Positions 52,877 through 63,751 of a stretch of DNA of 64,000 bases are shown piece after piece. The stretch covers positions 63,935-127,934 of the forward strand of contig NVWA01000008.1 in assembly GCA_002746535.1 (NCBI GenBank), read 5' to 3'. The notes beneath the pieces were generated by a model that ran no database searches, was not told the DNA's origin, and saw only the letters and a program-made list of their open reading frames with translations. This DNA comes from Planctomycetota bacterium. GTDB taxonomy: Bacteria; Planctomycetota; GCA-2746535. How positions within the stretch are numbered: position 1 is the stretch's first letter; every line of letters begins with the position of its first letter. The translations under genes were made by a program, and so were the position numbers.

Positions 52877-53677
52877 ATGAAAAATGTATTATTCATCTTC
52901 TTGTATCTTTCGTTCACAGTGATTATTCACGGTATCGACATTAAAGAAGGCTATACCAATAGAATTTTTCTAAAAGAAAAAATGTTAAAAGGTATTTGGG
53001 TAGGTGAGTTGGATGGTAAGCAACCAATTTACTATGAATTTAAACATCGTAAAAATTTTGTTAATGGTAAAACTTCATTAGTAAGTGTTTCTCATTGGGC
53101 TCCTATAGGAGGTGGTGACTTTAAACGTAGTGCTGAAACCCATCCCATTCATTTTTTTGAAGGAGAAGTGTTATTGTCAGATTCATTTTTAGAATCTATT
53201 CCTGATCAACCAGGTGTTCTTTTGCTGACAAAATTAACGATGACGATTGGGACAACAGCACTGTACAGATCAAGCATTGATGAAATCAATCAATATAAAG
53301 GTAAGTGGAAAGAGCTAATGAAAAAATTGCGTGGTAATCGAAAGCTGATTACGGTTGAAGATTCTACGGCTCCAATATTGCTTTTTGGATATGGTTATCG
53401 TGTTCAAACGGCTAAACAAAAAAAAGTGTCAGGTGTAGATGGCATTAATGTTATTAATCTATTACAGGGAAAACCTGCTGAAAAAGCTGGCATGAAAGCA
53501 GGCGATATTGTTTTAAAAATTAATGGAAAAATTGTTTTTGATAGAGTGAGTCTTATCTTTTCTTATAGGAATGAGAAGGGAGTCAAACCTATCCCAGTCT
53601 TATTATTACGTAATAAGAAAAAAGTTACAATTAATGTTATTCCATATAAGCGGAAGAAAATTACGGTCAAAAAATAG
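52877..53677 (+). CDS. Exported PDZ-domain protein
   Basis: About 266 residues from the ATG at 52877, which gives a clean signal peptide (NVLFIFLYLSFTVIIHG); longer frames place it internally. The N-terminal 150 residues hold a beta-rich part (LKGIWVGELDGKQPIYYEF) of no recognised family. The last 80 residues form a PDZ domain (INLLQGKPAEKAGMKAGDIVLKINGKIV). No trypsin-like protease domain is present, so it is probably a scaffold or a protease adaptor in the periplasm. Stands alone between the Hsp70 operon and the sulfur cluster. Confidence 0.8.
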   Translation: MKNVLFIFLYLSFTVIIHGIDIKEGYTNRIFLKEKMLKGIWVGELDGKQPIYYEFKHRKNFVNGKTSLVSVSHWAPIGGGDFKRSAETHPIHFFEGEVLLSDSFLESIPDQPGVLLLTKLTMTIGTTALYRSSIDEINQYKGKWKELMKKLRGNRKLITVEDSTAPILLFGYGYRVQTAKQKKVSGVDGINVINLLQGKPAEKAGMKAGDIVLKINGKIVFDRVSLIFSYRNEKGVKPIPVLLLRNKKKVTINVIPYKRKKITVKK

Positions 53678-53739
53678 AAAAGTTCTCCGTTATTTAGTAT
53701 TGGCCTTGAAATCACGATTATTACCTATAAAGACTCTAA

Positions 53740-53757
53740 CTTGACTAAATTTATCAG
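53740..53757 (+). promoter_or_regulatory. Operator-like site 1 for the Rrf2 regulator
   Basis: CTTGACTAAATTTATCAG. It matches, in inverted orientation, the site at 53832-53849: CTTGACTA-N4-TATCA is shared (13 positions). It lies about 20 bases before the -35 region. Confidence 0.5.
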
Positions 53758-53760
53758 TTT

Positions 53761-53774
53761 ACTTTTTAAAAAGT
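53761..53774. promoter_or_regulatory. Perfect 14-bp palindrome next to the -35 region
   Basis: ACTTTTTAAAAAGT is a perfect palindrome abutting the promoter. It could be an extra binding site, though A/T-rich palindromes arise easily by chance. Confidence 0.3.
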
Positions 53775-53802
53775 GTTGAAAAGCTGAAGTTTTTACTATA
53801 AT
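53774..53802 (+). promoter_or_regulatory. Promoter of the rrf2-cys cluster
   Basis: TGTTGA (or TTGAAA two bases on) and a perfect TATAAT at 53797-53802, 48 bases before the rrf2 ATG. Flanked on both sides by matching inverted sites. Confidence 0.5.
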
Positions 53803-53831
53803 CCGACCAAAACAGCAATTTTAAAAGTAAG

Positions 53832-53849
53832 TTGATAAGAATAGTCAAG
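53832..53849 (-). promoter_or_regulatory. Operator-like site 2, abutting the rrf2 start codon
   Basis: Plus strand TTGATAAGAATAGTCAAG. Its reverse complement reads CTTGACTATTCTTATCAA, matching site 1. It also has weak inner dyad symmetry (TTGA...TCAA), as expected for a dimeric Rrf2 protein. It occupies the place of the ribosome site, so binding would block early transcription. Confidence 0.5.
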
Positions 53850-53850
53850 T

Positions 53851-54264
53851 ATGTTTTGTTTGTCTACTAAAGGAATCTATGGGGCTCAAGCTTTAATAGA
53901 ACTATCACTTCGACATGGGAATGGCGTTGTGCAGATAAAAGAATTGGCTGAGAGTTGTCAAATTTCTAAAACATACTTAGAGCAACTTTTTAATTTGCTA
54001 AAGAAGGCCGAAATCGTTAGAAGTGTTCGAGGGAATAAAGGTGGTTATTCGCTGGCAAGAGAACCAGAAGAAATTTCATTGATGGATGTCATGGTAGCCT
54101 TAGAAGGGTGTATTGAGATTTCAAAAAATGTTGAAGTCAAAGGTGTTTTAGAATCTGTTTTCAAAGACACTGAAAATGGTATTAGAGATTCCTTATCGGT
54201 TAGTTTAAAAGAACTAGCAGATAAAGAAAAAGTTAAAAACGAAAATGTCACTTTTTATATTTGA
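53851..54264 (+). CDS. Rrf2-family transcription regulator (CymR-like)
   Basis: 137 residues. The winged-helix part is typical (STKGIYGAQALIELS, IKELAESCQISKTYLEQLFNLLKKAEIVRSVRGNKGGYSLAREP). The C-terminal dimer region has only one Cys (VALEGCIEISKN), so the three-Cys iron-sulfur site of IscR is missing. The cluster-free form and the position directly before cysK resemble CymR, the cysteine-metabolism repressor of Firmicutes that senses O-acetylserine through CysK. Two matching operator-like sites flank its promoter, suggesting autoregulation and control of the whole sulfur operon (inference). Confidence 0.85.
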   Translation: MFCLSTKGIYGAQALIELSLRHGNGVVQIKELAESCQISKTYLEQLFNLLKKAEIVRSVRGNKGGYSLAREPEEISLMDVMVALEGCIEISKNVEVKGVLESVFKDTENGIRDSLSVSLKELADKEKVKNENVTFYI

Positions 54265-54272
54265 GAGATTTG

Positions 54273-55193
54273 ATGAAGATTGCAAAAGATATTACAGAGC
54301 TTGTTGGTAAGACGCCTTTAGTCCAAATAAATAAGGTAATGGGAGATGATAACTTTACTGTTGCTAAACTTGAATTTTTTAACCCTACTTCTTCAGTTAA
54401 GGATCGTGCTGCACTTGAAATGGTAAATGAAGCCGAGAGATCAGGTGCCTTAAAAAAAGGGTCGACTATAATTGAAGCTACCAGTGGAAACACAGGGATA
54501 TCATTGGCTTTTATTGCTGCAGCAAGGGAATATAAGTTGGTATTAGTAATGCCTGAAGCCATGAGCATCGAACGTAAGCGTTTACTAAAATATCTTGGAG
54601 CTCATTTAGAATTGACTTCGGCCCATTTGGGAATGAAAGGATCAATTGATCGAGCAAATGTATTGGCAGGTGAAATTGAAAATTCATTTCTTGTGAAACA
54701 ATTTGATAATCCTGCCAATGTTGAAGCTCATGTCAAAACAACCGCTAGAGAATTAATTGAAGATACTGATAAAAATATTGATTATGTTTTTGTTGCTACT
54801 GGTACTGGAGGTACCGTAACAGGTATTGCGAAAGTTTTAAAAAAAGAGTTGAAGGATGTAAAAATTATTGCAATTGAGCCTGAAGGTTCTGCCGTATTAG
54901 GTGGAGGAAATGCCGGGCCTCATATGATTCAAGGGATTGGACCTGGGTTTATTCCATCAATTATGGATGTCTCTTTATTAGATGGGATCGTTTCTGTGGG
55001 CAATGAAGAATCCTATGAATATTCAAAGGCATTGGCCAAAGAAGAAGGATTAATTGCAGGCATTAGCTGTGGAGCGACCGTTGCCGGTGCTAAAAAATAT
55101 ATAGCTGAAAATAATATCAAAAATAAAAATATTGTTTTGATCTTCATGGATTCTGGTGAGAGATATACCAGTATTGATAGATTGATGAGTTAA
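54273..55193 (+). CDS. cysK: Cysteine synthase (O-acetylserine sulfhydrylase)
   Basis: PLP enzyme making cysteine from O-acetylserine and sulfide. About 306 residues. PLP lysine K43 in SSVKDRAA, substrate loop TSGNTG (70-75) and phosphate loop GTGGTVTGI are present, as is GIGPGFIP. The ATG at 54273 is chosen over a TTG inside the rrf2 end; it lies 8 bases after the rrf2 stop. A CysM-type enzyme using a thiocarboxylate carrier is an alternative reading given the ThiS-like gene next door; the sequence looks like CysK. Confidence 0.92.
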   Translation: MKIAKDITELVGKTPLVQINKVMGDDNFTVAKLEFFNPTSSVKDRAALEMVNEAERSGALKKGSTIIEATSGNTGISLAFIAAAREYKLVLVMPEAMSIERKRLLKYLGAHLELTSAHLGMKGSIDRANVLAGEIENSFLVKQFDNPANVEAHVKTTARELIEDTDKNIDYVFVATGTGGTVTGIAKVLKKELKDVKIIAIEPEGSAVLGGGNAGPHMIQGIGPGFIPSIMDVSLLDGIVSVGNEESYEYSKALAKEEGLIAGISCGATVAGAKKYIAENNIKNKNIVLIFMDSGERYTSIDRLMS

Positions 55194-55207: not shown

Positions 55208-55423
55208 ATGAAAATGAAAATTAAAGTTAATGGTGAAGAAAAAGAAATTACTGGCGAAATAAATATTACGACATTGTTGAAAGAAAATGATGTTGAGCAA
55301 CCTGACATGGTTTCAGTTCAGTTAAATGGTGAATTTGTCGAGCGAGATGTATTTGAATCTACTAGCGTTAAAGAAAATGATGAAGTTGAGTTCTTATATT
55401 TTATGGGTGGAGGTGTAAACTAA
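55208..55423 (+). CDS. ThiS/CysO/HcyS-like sulfur carrier protein with extended C-terminus
   Basis: 71 residues with the small ubiquitin fold of ThiS/MoaD (MKIKVNGEEKEIT, VSVQLNGEFVERD, VKENDEVEFLYFMGGGVN). The chain ends in Gly-Gly-Gly-Val-Asn, so two residues must be removed to expose a C-terminal Gly for adenylation. CysO and the Wolinella HcyS are likewise made as precursors and cut by a JAMM protease. It sits 14 bases after cysK and 1 base before the sulfhydrylase gene. The carrier probably bears the sulfide as a thiocarboxylate. Confidence 0.85.
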   Translation: MKMKIKVNGEEKEITGEINITTLLKENDVEQPDMVSVQLNGEFVERDVFESTSVKENDEVEFLYFMGGGVN

Positions 55424-55424
55424 T

Positions 55425-56651
55425 ATGGAAGGTTTCACAAGTAAATCCATCCACACTAAATTTTTGAAAAAAGATGCTCATGGGTCATTGCACATGCCTG
55501 TATATGATTGTGTCTCTTTTGAATTTGAATCATCGGAAGCAATTGTTGATGCTTTTGAAGGTAAAAAAGCAGCACATGCTTACACTAGAATTACAAACCC
55601 AACCATGGAACATTTTGAACAAAAAATACGTGCAGTGACGGGAGCTCAAGCAGTCTTGGCATTGTCTTCTGGCATGGCTGCTATTAGTAATCTAATCATG
55701 ACATTATGTGGAAGTGGTGATCATATCATTTGCAGTACATATTTATTTGGCAATACGAAATCCCTCTTGGATGTCACTCTAAAAAAATGGGGCTTGGAAG
55801 TTTCATTTGTTGACTTGGAAGATTTAGATGCGGTAAAAGCTGCTGTAACTGATAAGACGAGAATGATCTTTGGCGAAACAATTGCGAATCCTCAAATGAG
55901 AGTGATCGATATTCCTAATTTATCAAAAATTGCCAAAGAAAATGATATCCCATTAGTAATTGATTCAACGGTTACACCTCCATACCTTTTTGACGGTAAA
56001 GTACATGGTGCTGATATAGAAGTGATTTCTTCAACCAAATATATAAGTGGTGGTGCGACGAGCGTTGGCGGATTAATAATAGACCATGGTACTTTTGCCT
56101 GGAAAAAAAATATACATTTAGCAGATCTTGCAAAGAAAGTTGGTCCATTTGCATTGATAGCAAATCTTCGAAAAGAGGTCTATCGAAATTTAGGTGCTTG
56201 TATTTCCCCTCACAATGCTAACTTGCAAAGCTTGGGCTTAGATACGTTGGCCTTGAGAGCTGATAAGTCTTGCAAGAACACACTTGAGCTTGCGAAGTTT
56301 TTAGAAGGGAATGATAAAATCAAAAAAGTAAATTATCCTGGTTTGACTTCTTCTCCATACCATGAAATTAGTGATGTTTTATTTCCTAATTTACCTGGAT
56401 CAATCTTAACGTTTGATTGCGAGAGCAAGGAAGCCAGTTTTGTCTTAATGAATAAACTGCAAATGATAAGAAGATCAACAAATTTGAATGACAATAAGAC
56501 TTTGATCATACACCCCTCATCTACAATTTTTGCTGAGTTTTCTGAAGAAGAAAAACTAGAAATGGAAGTAACCCCAACATTATTGAGGTTGTCTGTCGGG
56601 ATTGAAGATATTGAAGATATAAAAAATGATTTACTCCAAGGATTAGAATAA
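55425..56651 (+). CDS. O-acetylhomoserine sulfhydrylase-like (Cys/Met metabolism PLP enzyme)
   Basis: 408 residues of the cystathionine-synthase/sulfhydrylase family. YTRITNPT at about 53-60, LALSSGMAAIS, PLP lysine K205 in SSTKYISGG, and the C-terminal RRSTNLNDNKTLIIHPSST are in place. Length and neighbours fit O-acetylhomoserine sulfhydrylase (MetY), which makes homocysteine. MetY of Wolinella takes sulfur from the HcyS thiocarboxylate. Here it is bracketed by the carrier and the E1-like gene. A methionine gamma-lyase or a cystathionine synthase cannot be ruled out from sequence alone. Confidence 0.85.
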   Translation: MEGFTSKSIHTKFLKKDAHGSLHMPVYDCVSFEFESSEAIVDAFEGKKAAHAYTRITNPTMEHFEQKIRAVTGAQAVLALSSGMAAISNLIMTLCGSGDHIICSTYLFGNTKSLLDVTLKKWGLEVSFVDLEDLDAVKAAVTDKTRMIFGETIANPQMRVIDIPNLSKIAKENDIPLVIDSTVTPPYLFDGKVHGADIEVISSTKYISGGATSVGGLIIDHGTFAWKKNIHLADLAKKVGPFALIANLRKEVYRNLGACISPHNANLQSLGLDTLALRADKSCKNTLELAKFLEGNDKIKKVNYPGLTSSPYHEISDVLFPNLPGSILTFDCESKEASFVLMNKLQMIRRSTNLNDNKTLIIHPSSTIFAEFSEEEKLEMEVTPTLLRLSVGIEDIEDIKNDLLQGLE

Positions 56652-56652
56652 C

Positions 56653-57462
56653 ATGAGAGACTTTACAGAAGATCAACTAGAGCGCTATAGTAGGCATATT
56701 TTACTACAAGATGTTGGTGTTGAAGGTCAAGAAAAAATTATGGATGCCAAAGTTTTTATTGTTGGTGCTGGTGGTCTAGGTGCTCCTGTAGCATTGTATT
56801 TAGCCGCTGCTGGTGTTGGTAAGATTGGTATTGCCGATTTTGATGTTGTTGATTTATCGAATTTACAAAGACAAGTAATACATTTTACTGATGATGTTGG
56901 AAAATTAAAAATAGATTCCGCCGCTGAAAAAATGAGAGCTATTAATCCTAATATAGAAGTAGATGCGATTAATGAAATGGTTGTTGCTGCAAATATAAGA
57001 GATCTTATAAAAGGTTATGACTTTGTTTTAGATGGAACGGATAATTTTTCAGCAAAATTTTTAATCAATGATGCTTGTGTAATGGAAGGCATCCCTTATA
57101 GCCATGGTGGTATTCTACGTTTTGATGGTCAAACAATGACGATTAAGCCTAAAGAGACAGCTTGTTATAGATGTGTTTTCAAACAACCACCTCCTGCAAA
57201 TGCTGTCCCAACTTGTTCGCAAGCAGGTGTTTTAGGTGCTATTGCAGGCATGTTAGGAACTATGCAGGCGGCAGAATGTTTGAAGTTTATTACGGGAGCC
57301 GGTGATTTGTTAACTAATAAATTGCTTTCGTTTAATGCTAAAACAATGGACTTTAGAAAAGTGAATATCAAGAGAAACCCAAACTGTGCTGTTTGTGGTG
57401 ACAGCCCAACGATTACTGAGTTGAGTGATGGTGAACAAGCTGTTTGTGATATAAAAAAGTAG
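56653..57462 (+). CDS. E1-like adenylyltransferase (ThiF/MoeB/HcyF-type)
   Basis: Adenylates the C-terminal Gly of the sulfur carrier so that sulfide can attack. 269 residues. ATP site GAGGLG at 38-43; DLSNLQRQV follows; two zinc-binding CxxC pairs (C171/C174 and C245/C248) and C188 in VPTCSQAG are present. No rhodanese domain follows, unlike the MoeB-MOCS3 long form, in keeping with direct use of sulfide. Starts one base after the preceding stop. Functionally closest to HcyF of Wolinella, judged by context. Confidence 0.9.
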   Translation: MRDFTEDQLERYSRHILLQDVGVEGQEKIMDAKVFIVGAGGLGAPVALYLAAAGVGKIGIADFDVVDLSNLQRQVIHFTDDVGKLKIDSAAEKMRAINPNIEVDAINEMVVAANIRDLIKGYDFVLDGTDNFSAKFLINDACVMEGIPYSHGGILRFDGQTMTIKPKETACYRCVFKQPPPANAVPTCSQAGVLGAIAGMLGTMQAAECLKFITGAGDLLTNKLLSFNAKTMDFRKVNIKRNPNCAVCGDSPTITELSDGEQAVCDIKK

Positions 57463-57472
57463 GTATATTTAA

Positions 57473-57880
57473 ATGGAATTGAAAATTATTGGATCAGTCT
57501 ACGAGAAATTAATAGAGATATCTCGAGAAGGAATACCAAATGAAATTTGTGGCTATTTATCAGGTGCAGATGATGTTTGTGAAGAGCTTCATCAACTTGA
57601 AAATATAAGTGATACGCCAGAAGTCTTTTTTAATTTTAATCCAAAAGATCAGTTTGCTGTTACAAAAGAGATTAGAGAAAAAGGAACTAAGTTTTTAGTT
57701 TGTTTTCATAGTCATCCCATTGGTGGGGAATCTCTTTCGAAAGATGATAAAAAATTACTAATCGATAAAAGTATGAAATACATAATAGTATCTTTACGAC
57801 TATCAGTACCAGTTGTGAATGCTTGGTCTTTTGATGGTGAAGAATATAAGCCACTAACTATAAGTATATTGGAGAAATAA
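57473..57880 (+). CDS. JAMM/Mov34 metalloprotease (Mec+/HcyD-like)
   Basis: Zinc isopeptidase-like protease of 135 residues. The JAMM site is complete: E24 in NEICGYL, then H79-x-H81-P-x6-S89-x2-D92. In Mycobacterium the Mec+ protease releases cysteine from CysO; in Wolinella HcyD trims the carrier before activation. Since the carrier here ends in two extra residues, trimming is the most likely job; release of a carrier-bound product is possible too. It follows the E1-like gene by 10 bases. Confidence 0.9.
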   Translation: MELKIIGSVYEKLIEISREGIPNEICGYLSGADDVCEELHQLENISDTPEVFFNFNPKDQFAVTKEIREKGTKFLVCFHSHPIGGESLSKDDKKLLIDKSMKYIIVSLRLSVPVVNAWSFDGEEYKPLTISILEK

Positions 57881-57881
57881 A

Positions 57882-60224
57882 ATGAAGTTTTATCAAACAG
57901 CTGACACCTTAATTGCGGAACAGGATCAGTTTGATCTGGATGTAAATGATTTTATTGCTGGCAAAATTGAACCAGTTAAATTTAAGGCTATTCGCGTAGC
58001 TCATGGTGTATATGAACAAAGAAAAGAAGAAACCTACATGATCCGTATTCGTTGTGCTGCCGGTGGCATCACACCTTCTCAATTTAAAGTAGTTGGGGAA
58101 CTTGCTGAAAAATACGGTAGTGGAGAAGTTCATGTTACGACTAGACAGGAAGTTCAAATTCATTATGTGAGAGCTGAAAATATCCTACGAGTCATCAGAG
58201 GTCTAAATGTTGTCAGTTTATCATCACGAGGCGGCGGTGGAAATACCATTAGAAATATATTAACGCCACCTGATTCTGGCATTGATCCTGATGAAGAATT
58301 TGATGTAGATCCTTATGCCATAGCATTAACATCTAGATTAATTCAAGAACCAGATAGTTGGAATTTACCAAGAAAGTTCAAAATAAATTTTTCAAATTCA
58401 AAAGCTGATAAATCTTATACCCAAGCAACTTGTCTTGGATTTGTAGCGCTCATGAAAGACGGCAAAAAAGGCTTTTATGTTACTTGTGCTGGTGGAATGG
58501 GTGCCAAACCAATGGTTGGGCATACATTGATTGACTGGATTCCGGATGCACAAGTTTATCACGTTGCCAGAGCACTCAAAACGATGTTTGATAAGAATGG
58601 CAATCGAAGAAGTCGAACAACAAATCGAATAAAATTTTTATGGAAAAAAATAGGCGAAGATTCATTTCAAGATTTATTTTTAGAAGAATATAACAAAATT
58701 AAAGATGATGCTAGTCTAGCTCTTAATCTTATTGAGCTTGATAATAGTACTGTTGTTGAATCTTCTTTATCTGTAGAAGTTGTCGATAAACCTGAATTTG
58801 AAATTTGGAAAAAACGATTTGTTAATAAACAAAAACAAGAAGGTTTATTTTCTATCTTGTTACCTTTAAAACTAGGAGATATTGAGCATAGTGAAGTTAA
58901 TCGCTTGGCGGATTTTTTAGAAAATTTTGGCGATAATACAATTCGTTGTACGAGAGCTCAAAATCTTTTATTAAGAAACATTCCTGAAAAATATTTGGGC
59001 AATGCGTTCAATACAATTCAAAAAATTGAAACGTTATCTGATAGAGCTTCTTTTATTGGTCAAATGGTTAATTGTACTGGAGCCAGTACATGTAAACTTG
59101 GAATTTGTTTACCAAGAGGATTGAGTTCAGCGATTAGTTCACGACTTGTAGGTAGTGATTTAGATTTAGATAGATTAAGTGATTTTAAATTAAATATGTC
59201 TGGTTGTCCAAATACTTGTGGATTGCATCATATCGCAGATTTAGGCTTTTTTGGAAAAGTATCACGGCATAACGGGAAAATGTATCCGGGATATAATGTG
59301 TTAGCCGGTGCTCAGCTAGCTATGGGTGATACTAAATATGCTGAAAAAGTTTCAACGATCAGCTCGAAAGCGGTTCCTGATTTTGTACATGATTTTTTAG
59401 AAGACTACTTAACAAAGATGGATTCTGTTGGATCTTATAAAGAGTATTTAGAAGTTGCTGGCATTGATAAAATTAAATCACTGTGTGAACATTATAAAGA
59501 TATTCCTGATTTCGATGATGATCAAAGTTCTTATATTGATTTTGGTGCTACTAAACCTTTATCTCTTGAGGAAATAGGTACAGCCGAATGTTCTGCAGGA
59601 ATGTTTGATATGATTGATGTTGATAAAAAATTAATTAATTTGCACAATAAAAGACTTTCGGAAGCAACAACAGAAGAAGATGAGCAAAAAGCATTGTACA
59701 AAGTGCTATTTTCCTCATCGAGAATGTTATTAGTTACAAGAGGGTTAGATGCTAAAAAGGAGTCAGATGCTTTTGCAATGTTTAAAAAACATTTTATTGA
59801 AGCAGGATTAATTGATGAGAAATTCGGTGATGTGGTAACACTTGGCAAATTAAATGTAGTAAGTGAATTGGTTAATCACAAAGACCTTATCGTTGAATTA
59901 TCTGCTGAAGTAATCAAATTACATAAAAGTATGGATGATTCTTTAAGATTTAATATTGAAAACAAAAAGGTTGCTGAAGAGAAATCTGTTGCCGTTGATG
60001 AAATCACATTCAAAGATTTCAGAGGTGTGGCTTGTCCTATGAACTTCGTGAAAACAAAAATGGTTTTAGCCTCATTAAAGGGTGGCGATAAGTTAAAAAT
60101 ATTATTGGATGATGGTGAGCCAATAAATAATGTCCCTAATTCTGTGAAATTAGAAGGGCATAAAATCCTTGAGCAAAGTCAAGAGACCGAAGGTCATTGG
60201 CAAGTGTTAATTGAAAAGGCTTAG
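57882..60224 (+). CDS. Sulfite/nitrite reductase with C-terminal TusA domain
   Basis: 780 residues. Residues 1-500 are a sirohaem/4Fe-4S reductase: RIRCAAGGITP and VHVTTRQEVQIHYV at the N-terminus, and cluster cysteines C398, C404 (C-x5-C) and C442, C446 (C-x3-C). Residues about 560-690 form a helical segment I do not recognise. Residues 705-780 are a TusA-like sulfur-transfer domain with C718-P719 (GVACPMNFVKTKMVLASL). Located among the sulfur genes, it should make sulfide from sulfite; no flavoprotein subunit is present, so ferredoxin is the likely donor. The TusA domain may carry the product as a persulfide. Confidence 0.85.
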   Translation: MKFYQTADTLIAEQDQFDLDVNDFIAGKIEPVKFKAIRVAHGVYEQRKEETYMIRIRCAAGGITPSQFKVVGELAEKYGSGEVHVTTRQEVQIHYVRAENILRVIRGLNVVSLSSRGGGGNTIRNILTPPDSGIDPDEEFDVDPYAIALTSRLIQEPDSWNLPRKFKINFSNSKADKSYTQATCLGFVALMKDGKKGFYVTCAGGMGAKPMVGHTLIDWIPDAQVYHVARALKTMFDKNGNRRSRTTNRIKFLWKKIGEDSFQDLFLEEYNKIKDDASLALNLIELDNSTVVESSLSVEVVDKPEFEIWKKRFVNKQKQEGLFSILLPLKLGDIEHSEVNRLADFLENFGDNTIRCTRAQNLLLRNIPEKYLGNAFNTIQKIETLSDRASFIGQMVNCTGASTCKLGICLPRGLSSAISSRLVGSDLDLDRLSDFKLNMSGCPNTCGLHHIADLGFFGKVSRHNGKMYPGYNVLAGAQLAMGDTKYAEKVSTISSKAVPDFVHDFLEDYLTKMDSVGSYKEYLEVAGIDKIKSLCEHYKDIPDFDDDQSSYIDFGATKPLSLEEIGTAECSAGMFDMIDVDKKLINLHNKRLSEATTEEDEQKALYKVLFSSSRMLLVTRGLDAKKESDAFAMFKKHFIEAGLIDEKFGDVVTLGKLNVVSELVNHKDLIVELSAEVIKLHKSMDDSLRFNIENKKVAEEKSVAVDEITFKDFRGVACPMNFVKTKMVLASLKGGDKLKILLDDGEPINNVPNSVKLEGHKILEQSQETEGHWQVLIEKA

Positions 60225-60228
60225 TGAT

Positions 60229-60963
60229 ATGAGTGAAAAATTACAACAGTATCTTGATGAGACTAAAGATTTAGATGCCCTACAATTAGTTGAATGGGGG
60301 TTGTCAACATTTGGTAAAAATAAAATTGCTTTAGCATCCAGTTTAGGTGCAGAAGATCAAGTTCTTACGCAAATGATTTTGAAAGTTGATTCCCATGCTA
60401 GAATATTCACCTTAGATACAGGTCGACAATTTCAAGAAAACTATGATGTGATGACTGCTAGTATTGAAAAATATGATTTTAATTATGAAGTCTGTTTTCC
60501 AGAAGTTGAAGCGGTACAAAATCTAATGAACCGCGGTGGACCAAATTTATTTTATAATAGTATTGAAGATAGAAAAGCTTGTTGTGAAGTTAGAAAAATG
60601 GCACCGCTAAGAAAAAAATTGTCGACGGTAGATTGTTGGGCTACTGGTTTAAGGAGTCAGCAGTCGGTAACAAGGACAGATACTCCTTCTGTTGAATGGG
60701 ATGATAATTTTGGTATTTTCAAAATTAATCCATTAATAAATTGGTCAGAAAATAGTGTTTGGGATTTCATCAAAGAAAATGAAATCCCTTATAATAAATT
60801 ACATGATAAGGGGTTTCCAAGTATAGGATGCCAACCATGTACACGAGCTGTAAAAGAGGGTGAAGATGTTCGTGGTGGTCGTTGGTGGTGGGAAACACCA
60901 GAGCAAAAAGAATGTGGCTTGCACATGAAAGATGGCAAGTTAGTTAGAAAGTCAACAGATTAA
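60229..60963 (+). CDS. cysH: Adenylyl-sulfate (APS) reductase, 4Fe-4S type
   Basis: Reduces APS to sulfite. About 244 residues. [23 protein letters not shown] and the [12 protein letters not shown] strand are in place. The iron-sulfur cysteines are complete (CC at 118-119 and C-x2-C at 201/204), with catalytic Cys229 in KECGLH. The cluster cysteines place it among APS, not PAPS, reductases. The ATG at 60229 follows the reductase stop by 4 bases; a TTG start would overlap it. Confidence 0.93.
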
Positions 60964-60977
60964 AAGAAAGTATTAAA

Positions 60978-61859
60978 ATGGATCGTATAGAAAAACTTGA
61001 AGCTCAAAGTGTTCATATTTTGAGAGAGGCGTATCGTGAATTTAAAGACCTTGTGATGCTTTGGTCAGTCGGTAAAGATAGCACCGTGTTATTGTGGTTG
61101 GCAAGAAAAGCATTTTTCGGTCATGTGCCTTTTCCGTTAGTTCATATAGACACACATTATAAAATTCCTCAAATGATTGAATATAGAGATAATTTAGCCG
61201 CTGAATGGAAGCTAAATATGGTTTATGGTCAGAATAAAGAAGCCTTAAAAAATAAGCAGACTTATCCCGACGGTAACCTTGATAGAATTTCTTGCTGTAA
61301 AAATTTAAAAAGTGAAGCGCTAAAACATACGCTATCTGGTGAATGGGAGCGGTTTAGATTCAATCATGATAAAGGTGAATATGATGTGGATACTAATAAA
61401 GAACCATATACAGGTGTTATTGTTGGAGTTCGAGCTGATGAAGAAGGTAGTCGATCAAAGGAACGTTATTTTTCCCCAAGAGATAAAGAAAATGACTGGG
61501 ATGTAGATGACCAACCACCTGAATTTTGGAATCAATATAAAACTGATTTTGCTCCTGGAACGCACTTGAGAATTCATCCTCTGTTAGATTGGACTGAACT
61601 TAATATTTGGGAATATATTCAAAAAGAAGATATTCCAATAGTTGATTTGTATTTTGATCGAGGTGAAGGCCAGAGATATAGAAGTTTAGGCTGTTATCCA
61701 TGTACTACTCCAGTTGAATCAACTGCAAAGAATATTCCTGAAATTATTGAGGAATTAAAAAGTGGTAAATTTGCAAATGTTGCCGAGAGATCTGGGCGAG
61801 CACAAGATAAAGAAGATGGTGGTGGGTTAGAAACCCTTCGTCGCGACGGGTATATGTAA
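60978..61859 (+). CDS. cysD: Sulfate adenylyltransferase subunit 2
   Basis: ATP sulfurylase catalytic subunit, forming APS from sulfate and ATP. 293 residues. The PP-loop is SVGKDST near residue 31; [35 protein letters not shown] and [11 protein letters not shown] are in family order, and the C-terminal [12 protein letters not shown]...LRRDGYM is typical. It follows cysH and precedes its regulatory partner cysN. Confidence 0.97.
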
Positions 61860-61918
61860 ACTGAAATAGAATTATATGGATGTCTTTGTATGGGCATTCC
61901 AAAAAAGGAGAAAAGTTC

Positions 61919-63751
61919 GTGACTGAGCAAACAAACGAATTGGTAAAAATAGAAGAAGATAAAGAGCAAATGAGTATCGTGATTGTCGGTCACGTTGATC
62001 ACGGTAAAAGTACCGTAATTGGTCGCCTATTAGCTGACACAGGATCATTGCCCGATGGCAAGTTAGAAGCTGTCAGAAGAAATTGTGAATTAAATTCAAA
62101 ACCTTTTGAATATGCTTTTTTGCTGGATGCCTTAAAAAATGAACAAGCACAAGGCATTACGATTGATACAGCGCGCTGTTTTTTTCAATCTGATTTAAGA
62201 CACTATATCATTATTGATGCGCCAGGTCACATTGAGTTTTTAAAAAATATGGTGACAGGTGCTGCGAGAGCTCAGGCCGCTTTGTTGGTTATAGATGCCA
62301 AAGAAGGTATTCGTGAAAATTCTAAAAGGCATGGTTATTTAATATCTATGCTAGGAATTAAAGACGTTGTAGTTTTAGTAAATAAACTTGATTTAGTCGA
62401 TTACAGTGAAAAAGTTTTCAATGATATCAAAGAGGAGTTCACTGGTTTTCTAAAAAAATTAAATGTTACACCAATAAACTTTATCCCTATATCTGCAAGA
62501 GAAGGTGAAAATATTGCTAATCATTCATCAGAAATGAAATGGTATAAAGGTCCGAATGTTTTAAAGCAATTAGATTTATTTGAGGTCGTTAATGATAAGG
62601 GTGATCAACCATTTAGGTTACCTGTCCAAGATATTTATAAATTTACCCAACAAAACGATGATCGTAGAATTGTTGCAGGTACTGTTGTCTCAGGGAAAAT
62701 TGACGTTGGTGATGAGGTTACATTTTACCCTTCTGGAAAAAAGTCGACGATATCAAAAATTGAAATGTTTAATACGCCAGAAAAAACAACGGCTACTGTT
62801 GGCGAAGTCTGTGGCTATAGCTTAAGTACTCAAATATACACTAAAGCTGGTGAGATGATGGTGAAAAGTTCAGAGGAGCCACCTAAAGTAAGTAATCGGT
62901 TTAGAGTAAACATATTCTGGGTTGGTAAAGCACCTATGATAAAAGGAAAGAATTATAAACTTAAATTACATGCGACTAGTTCCCCAGTAAAATTGGTAGA
63001 TATTCTTAATGTTTTGGATGCCTCGGATTTAACATCAGTTGCTAATAAACAACAAGTTGATAGACATGATGTAGCCGAATGTGTTTTTGAAACAACTAAG
63101 CCCGTTGCCTTTGATTTAAGTAGTGATATTGAAGGTACCAGCCGAGTGGTGATTGTGGATAATTTTGAAATTGCAGGTGGCGGTATTATATTTCATGATA
63201 TTCAAGAAGAAAACACAACCTTAAAGCAATATATTGAGAACCGTGAAGAAGCATGGGTAAAAGGCGAAATCAGTGAGTTAGATAGGTCGGTTGTTTATGG
63301 TCACAAATCTAAATTCATTTTAATTACAGGAAGTGATGAGCAGGGCTGTAAGTCAATTGCCGTAGCTCTAGAAAAGAAATTGTTTGATAGTAAGTTTAAA
63401 GCCTATTATTTGGGTATGTCTAATTTGCTAACTACCATGGGGGAAAATCGTGGTAGTGTACTTGATCAAAATGAACAAATAAAATGGCTAGGCGAATTGG
63501 CTAGATTTTTTACTGGTTCTGGACAAATCTTTATATCAGCAATATCACACTTAGATGATTTTGATATTGAAAATTTAAAGGTTCTAAATTCACCTAGCGA
63601 TATCTTAGTTGTCAATGTAGGTGAAAACCAACTTAATAAATATAAAGTTGATTTGGATTTAGAGCAAATCTCAGAAGTTGATGATAGCGTTGGTAAAATA
63701 GTTCAGTTGCTTCATGATGAGCATATATTGCAGGTTGAGTATTACCTATAA
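61919..63751 (+). CDS. cysN: Sulfate adenylyltransferase GTPase subunit with a decayed APS-kinase domain
   Basis: GTPase subunit of ATP sulfurylase fused to a CysC-like region. About 610 residues. Start taken as the GTG at 61919, which has AAGGAG 8 bases upstream; an ATG at 61880 lacks one. GTPase motifs [14 protein letters not shown] and NKLD are intact. Two beta-barrel domains follow. From about residue 450 the APS-kinase-like region begins ([23 protein letters not shown]). Its Walker A is altered to GSDEQGCKS, with Cys where the Lys should be, and the rest is diverged, so kinase activity is unlikely. The pathway here uses APS reductase, which needs no PAPS. Confidence 0.88.

Follow-up and report, generated by a model that had tools for sequence, protein, structure and literature searches.

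Organization of the sulfate assimilation locus

The window, defined here as the whole 64 kb stretch of planctomycetotal DNA that was analysed, includes a ten-gene sulfate assimilation operon headed by rrf2, a gene for an Rrf2-family regulator (53851..54264, + strand). Directly second is cysK, encoding cysteine synthase A (54273..55193, +; TIGR01139, 387 bits with a cut-off of 351). The next five genes, also on the + strand, encode a ThiS-like sulfur carrier (55208..55423; above the TIGR01683 cut-off), a Cys/Met PLP enzyme resembling O-acetylhomoserine sulfhydrylase, MetY (55425..56651; PF01053, with TIGR01326 as the best model, below its cut-off), a ThiF/MoeB-type adenylyltransferase (56653..57462; profile match), a JAMM (Prok-JAB) protease resembling Mec/HcyD (57473..57880; PF14464) and a sulfite/nitrite reductase fused to TusA (57882..60224; PF01077, PF03460 and PF01206). 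The last three genes on this strand are cysH for an APS/PAPS reductase (60211..60963; TIGR02055 and NF002537 above cut-off), cysD for the small subunit of sulfate adenylyltransferase (60978..61859; NF003587 above cut-off) and cysN (61880..63751; TIGR02034 above cut-off). The C-terminal APS-kinase-like part of CysN is partial and possibly degenerate. Judging from the gene order, the shared strand and the short gaps, the ten genes presumably form a single transcript. The encoded enzymes would cover the route from sulfate to cysteine and probably that to homocysteine.

A ThiS-like carrier, ThiF, a JAMM protease and a MetY-like enzyme, together with sulfite reductase, make up a known pathway set, and the operon has all of these parts. 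It differs in the addition of cysK, cysH, cysD, cysN and the Rrf2 regulator, and in the C-terminus of the carrier, which is GGGVN, so that the diglycine is not terminal. By analogy with protein-thiocarboxylate pathways, the JAMM protease of the operon may trim the carrier. Downstream of the operon (L097:2359-7061) there is an oleABCD-like olefin cluster comprising a 3-oxoacyl-ACP synthase III-like protein, an alpha/beta hydrolase, an AMP ligase and an NAD-dependent epimerase; the first gene was tested by profile and the others were read from the listing.

The product of rrf2 is 137 aa long and is a clear member of the Rrf2 family (PF02082, 102.8 bits with a cut-off of 30; TIGR00738, 92.8 bits with a cut-off of 73.3), and its helix-turn-helix aligns with the solved structures of CymR and IscR. 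The best-scoring equivalog model is CymR (NF047409, 102.6 bits, 1.8e-29), at a score below the curated cut-off of 195. The cluster ligands of IscR are C92, C98, C104 and H107 (PMC3899308), and the matching region of the rrf2 product contains a single Cys, in keeping with the clusterless CymR. An identification as IscR was rejected, as the three Cys and one His that ligate the [2Fe-2S] cluster are absent and the TIGR02010 score is 82.6 bits with a cut-off of 207.55. On these grounds, we classify the protein as a CymR-like Rrf2 regulator predicted to carry no Fe-S cluster.

An inverted repeat in the rrf2 leader

The original prediction placed two matching operator-like sites in inverted orientation upstream of rrf2, and both were recovered: the left 18-mer, CTTGACTAAATTTATCAG, lies at 53740-53757 on the + strand and the right one, CTTGACTATTCTTATCAA, at 53849-53832 on the − strand. 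They have CTTGACTA-N4-TATCA in common and are identical at 14 of 18 positions overall. The 14 bp perfect palindrome (53761-53774, ACTTTTTAAAAAGT) and the TATAAT (53797-53802) described as lying between them were also found. What had been overlooked is that the repeat extends past the 18-mers, which are the outer portions of a 32 nt imperfect inverted repeat with a left arm at 53739-53770, overlapped by the palindrome, and a right arm at 53819-53850. The arms are separated by 48 nt and paired at 26 of 32 positions (81 % complementary), and the right arm reaches up to the base immediately 5′ of the rrf2 ATG (53851).

The accompanying argument that such a match is unlikely by chance did not stand for the 18-mers alone. 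Among 1000 composition-matched Markov leaders, 183 (18 %) contained an inverted 18-mer pair with at least 14 of 18 identities, and the 18-mer match is by itself weak evidence. For the 32 nt repeat the argument did stand, as its score was reached in only 1 of 1000 dinucleotide shuffles. It is also both the best and the sole inverted repeat of its class in the window (loop ≥20, span ≤150, score ≥12.5). No second copy was found elsewhere in the genome, and a repeated element or MITE was rejected on that basis.

The best promoter candidate in the leader, identified by consensus scoring only, is on the + strand at 53776..53802 and consists of TTGAAA (53776-53781), a 15 nt spacer and the TATAAT, with a predicted start at approximately 53809. 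A separate search at 16-18 nt spacing found no + strand promoter in the leader. Relative to the predicted start, the two sites are centred at approximately −60 and +31, that is 91 bp or 8.7 turns apart, and neither overlaps the TATAAT promoter. An antisense promoter-like pair, TTGACT-19-TAAAAT, is present in the right arm (53848-53818, −).

Resemblance of the two sites to Rrf2-family operators

The consensus for the type 1 operator of Escherichia coli IscR is 25 bp long, ATASYYGACTRWWWYAGTCRRSTAT (PMC3899308). The left site, taken as the 25-mer TAACTTGACTAAATTTATCAGTTTA (53737..53761, +; core 53740-53757), matches it at 18 of 25 positions (72 %), and the right site, ATACTTGACTATTCTTATCAACTTA (53828..53852, −; core 53832-53849), which extends into the rrf2 start codon by two bases, matches it at 20 of 25 (80 %). 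These values are in the range of those for two putative IscR sites of Pseudomonas aeruginosa, which match the type 1 consensus at 68 % and 76 % (PMC3899308). The right site has the top type 1 score among all positions of the window, and approximately 0.002 matches at the score of the right site and 0.03 at that of the left site are expected per leader of this length. Because the consensus was picked post hoc, when the sites had already been seen, and is not in excess genome-wide (139 matches, compared with 131 for the reversed control, and hence no enrichment of the kind expected of a regulon), the match supports a local reading only.

Across the consensus, the left and right sites are identical at all 14 of positions 4-11 and 15-20, and the differences between them are confined to positions 1, 2, 12-14 (W), 21 (R) and 22, a pattern that fits recognition by a protein. 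The IscR and CymR motifs are reportedly alike (PMC3828012). The two sites look like putative Rrf2-family operators, although nine paired bases of the repeat lie outside the 25-mers and are not accounted for by two operators. The part of the original prediction that has Rrf2 binding both sites and repressing its own operon draws support, by inference, from the operator likeness, the CymR-like gene and the sulfate operon.

Predicted docking of the regulator to CysK

In Bacillus subtilis, CymR works in a complex with CysK that is loosened by O-acetylserine (OAS) (PMC3828012, PMC2940859). Partners of CysK dock via a C-terminal isoleucine, a motif reported for CymR, which is listed among these partners, and the peptide-binding residues of CysK are T71, S72, T75 and Q145 (PMC12895370). 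The rrf2 product ends in VTFYI and so has an isoleucine tail of the CysK-docking type, as CymR does. In the CysK encoded in the window, both the TSGNT loop and the QFDNPAN glutamine, which correspond to the four residues, are conserved. With cysK as the next gene and a regulator that ends in this type of isoleucine, a link to OAS is plausible. The best CysE candidate of the genome ends in FKK and lacks a C-terminal isoleucine, and the CysK site is therefore probably free of CysE.

Among Rrf2 homologues retrieved from the same phylum, a C-terminal isoleucine was present in 7 of 11 that are cysK-linked and in 10 of approximately 45 others, eight of those ten being from a single family (f42). The difference (Fisher p 0.006) includes the window protein and treats related sequences as independent, with no correction for kinship. 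The tails of the cysK-adjacent proteins (53851-54264, L101, L103, L105, L107, L108, L109 and L118) are mostly of the form aromatic-x-isoleucine, namely FYI, FQI, YNI, YHI and YAI, and such a tail is a probable CysK-docking tail. The f42 proteins (L005, L115-L117, L119, L121, L122 and L124) end in TY-x-I. A gene for an NMT1-like substrate-binding protein, which could be part of a sulfonate transporter, adjoins the f42 member L115, the one f42 neighbour tested.

Distribution of the motif within and beyond the genome

The original prediction also expected the motif to be enriched near cys and met genes, and this expectation failed. Pattern searches of the genome allowing at most one mismatch returned 24 matches (13 for the reversed motif), of which 19 are inside reading frames, three are outside the listed frames and two are the rrf2 sites, the only ones that adjoin a recognised sulfur gene. 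No good site was found in the neighbourhoods of the sulfate permease and cysE genes. A genome-wide regulon was rejected, as the matches are mostly within genes and none is at a further sulfur gene. The sole other perfect TTGACTA-N4-TATCAA, on contig C36, has as its neighbours a lipoprotein gene and a small ORF resembling a monooxygenase, not sulfur genes, and a perfect type 1 match on contig C71 is between ORFs and away from recognised Fe-S or sulfur genes. However, because nearly all of the pathway genes are in one operon, the missing enrichment is a weak negative and a regulon with a single target is natural here.

The homologues available for comparison were from the same phylum at best, with a best identity of 53 %, and a scan of genome contigs for close orthologues gave only two matches, both from Chloroflexi. 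In other families of the phylum, the leaders of rrf2 genes linked to cysK (approximately 50 % identity) do not contain TTGACTA-N4-TATCA, and most of them have no significant type 1 match. Several cysK-linked homologues carry a single palindrome near the −10 element instead. Of the six best type 1 matches in the homologue leaders, four begin 31-35 bp 5′ of the start codon, which is close to the location of the right site in the window. A stretch like TTCTTGATATACAATTCAGAATATTGTATTTTTAA, common to L100, L103 and L105, was seen upstream of rrf2-cysK and is possibly another operator.

Alternative explanations for the repeat

The main rival, which we regard as unlikely, is an RNA hairpin. Read-through from the upstream PDZ gene, or transcription from a promoter before 53739, would produce an RNA in which the paired arms mask the rrf2 start, and the operon would be insulated or RNA-regulated. 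The plus-strand fold is stable (−29.4 kcal/mol, z −4.5), three of the six mismatched arm positions would form G-U pairs in plus-strand RNA, the right arm abuts the rrf2 ATG, and no terminator could be identified in the stretch from the PDZ gene to the repeat. However, the minus strand is nearly as stable (−26.1, z −3.8), as expected of any inverted repeat in DNA. As the best promoter is in the loop, its transcript would bear the right arm only. A hairpin also does not predict a match to an Rrf2 operator, and no Rfam family was matched, a search of 53500-54300 for known riboswitches or T-boxes returning nothing near threshold.

It is similarly improbable, in our judgement, that the repeat is functionless, arising by chance in an AT-rich leader or inherited as a remnant left by an inverted duplication or a small mobile element. 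The frequency of inverted 18-mer matches in such leaders, the lack of genome-wide enrichment of the motif and the fact that conservation is not demonstrable among same-phylum homologues are all compatible with this explanation. Against it, the 32 nt repeat is unique within the 64 kb and almost never equalled in shuffled sequence, the single genomic copy argues against a repeated element, the sites agree with an outside consensus, and the mismatches are located at weak operator positions.

The sites might instead serve another regulator, either a non-Rrf2 factor or the product of the one further clear Rrf2 gene in the genome, on contig C84, and IscR-like regulators do bind type 1 sites. We rate this as highly improbable, as the C84 gene, read from the sequence, follows an HPt-like gene with no recognised Fe-S or sulfur genes there, whereas the local rrf2 adjoins the sites, and regulators located beside their sites are usually autoregulatory. 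An invertible promoter, with a recombinase flipping the 48 bp segment between the repeats, would suit a candidate promoter nested within inverted repeats, but we consider it extremely unlikely, as the two arms of an invertible segment are usually almost identical and these are 81 % identical, no recombinase was recognised among the adjacent listed ORFs, and the operon is metabolic.

Proposed regulation of the operon

We consider it likely that the two sites are operators of the local clusterless CymR-type Rrf2 protein, which would autorepress the operon in response to a signal sensed through CysK and OAS. The repeat and its rarity, the type 1 match, the gene order, the regulator family and the isoleucine tail, with its recurrence among cysK-linked homologues, are observations, whereas binding, repression, the coupling to CysK and OAS, the choice of promoter and any cooperation or looping between the sites are inferred. 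An Rrf2 dimer would occupy each inverted site and repress the nested promoter, and with it the whole sulfate-to-cysteine/homocysteine operon, including rrf2 itself. When cysteine is ample and OAS is low, CysK would grip the Phe-Tyr-Ile tail and stabilize Rrf2 on the DNA. When sulfur is scarce, OAS would build up and displace the Rrf2 tail from CysK, and the operon would be released. Protein at the right site could obstruct the start or form a roadblock, and protein at the left site could halt read-through from the PDZ gene. Looping, which is possible, would connect the two sites. A more elaborate version, in which the CysK dimer is an OAS-sensitive clasp that holds one isoleucine tail from each Rrf2 dimer and closes a 91 bp loop over the promoter, seems very unlikely. 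An ordinary cysteine-responsive autorepression switch with an unusual two-site layout is most likely.

Comparison with known regulatory systems

The CymR-CysK complex of B. subtilis and Staphylococcus aureus ties an Fe-S-free Rrf2 protein to CysK in the control of cysteine synthesis, as is proposed for the window. Here, however, rrf2 heads a single operon that also contains cysK and the genes for sulfate reduction, the protein scores below curated CymR, and two inverted sites flank the promoter. In Clostridium acetobutylicum, CAC2236-CAC2235 are a proposed CymR gene beside cysK with a predicted CymR site (PMC3828012). The rrf2-cysK gene pair is shared with the window, which differs in its phylum, its far longer operon and its two inverted sites.

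As in the autoregulation of isc by IscR in E. coli and P. aeruginosa, two type 1-like sites lie upstream of an operon whose first gene encodes an Rrf2 protein. In contrast to IscR, the window protein lacks the Fe-S cysteines and its operon serves sulfate assimilation instead of Fe-S assembly. In P. aeruginosa, the isc sites overlap the polymerase motif, whereas those in the window are inverted, 91 bp apart and off the promoter, which counts against the operator reading. In repression of the GalR/LacI type, the promoter is bracketed by operators located before and after the start. The sites in the window also flank the promoter on both sides of the predicted start, although Rrf2 belongs to an unrelated protein family.

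Comprising a single regulator, a single operon and two sites, this locus is a compact and testable case of probable Rrf2-CysK control of cysteine synthesis outside the Firmicutes. An aromatic-x-isoleucine tail encoded beside cysK could mark CysK-coupled Rrf2 regulators across bacteria.
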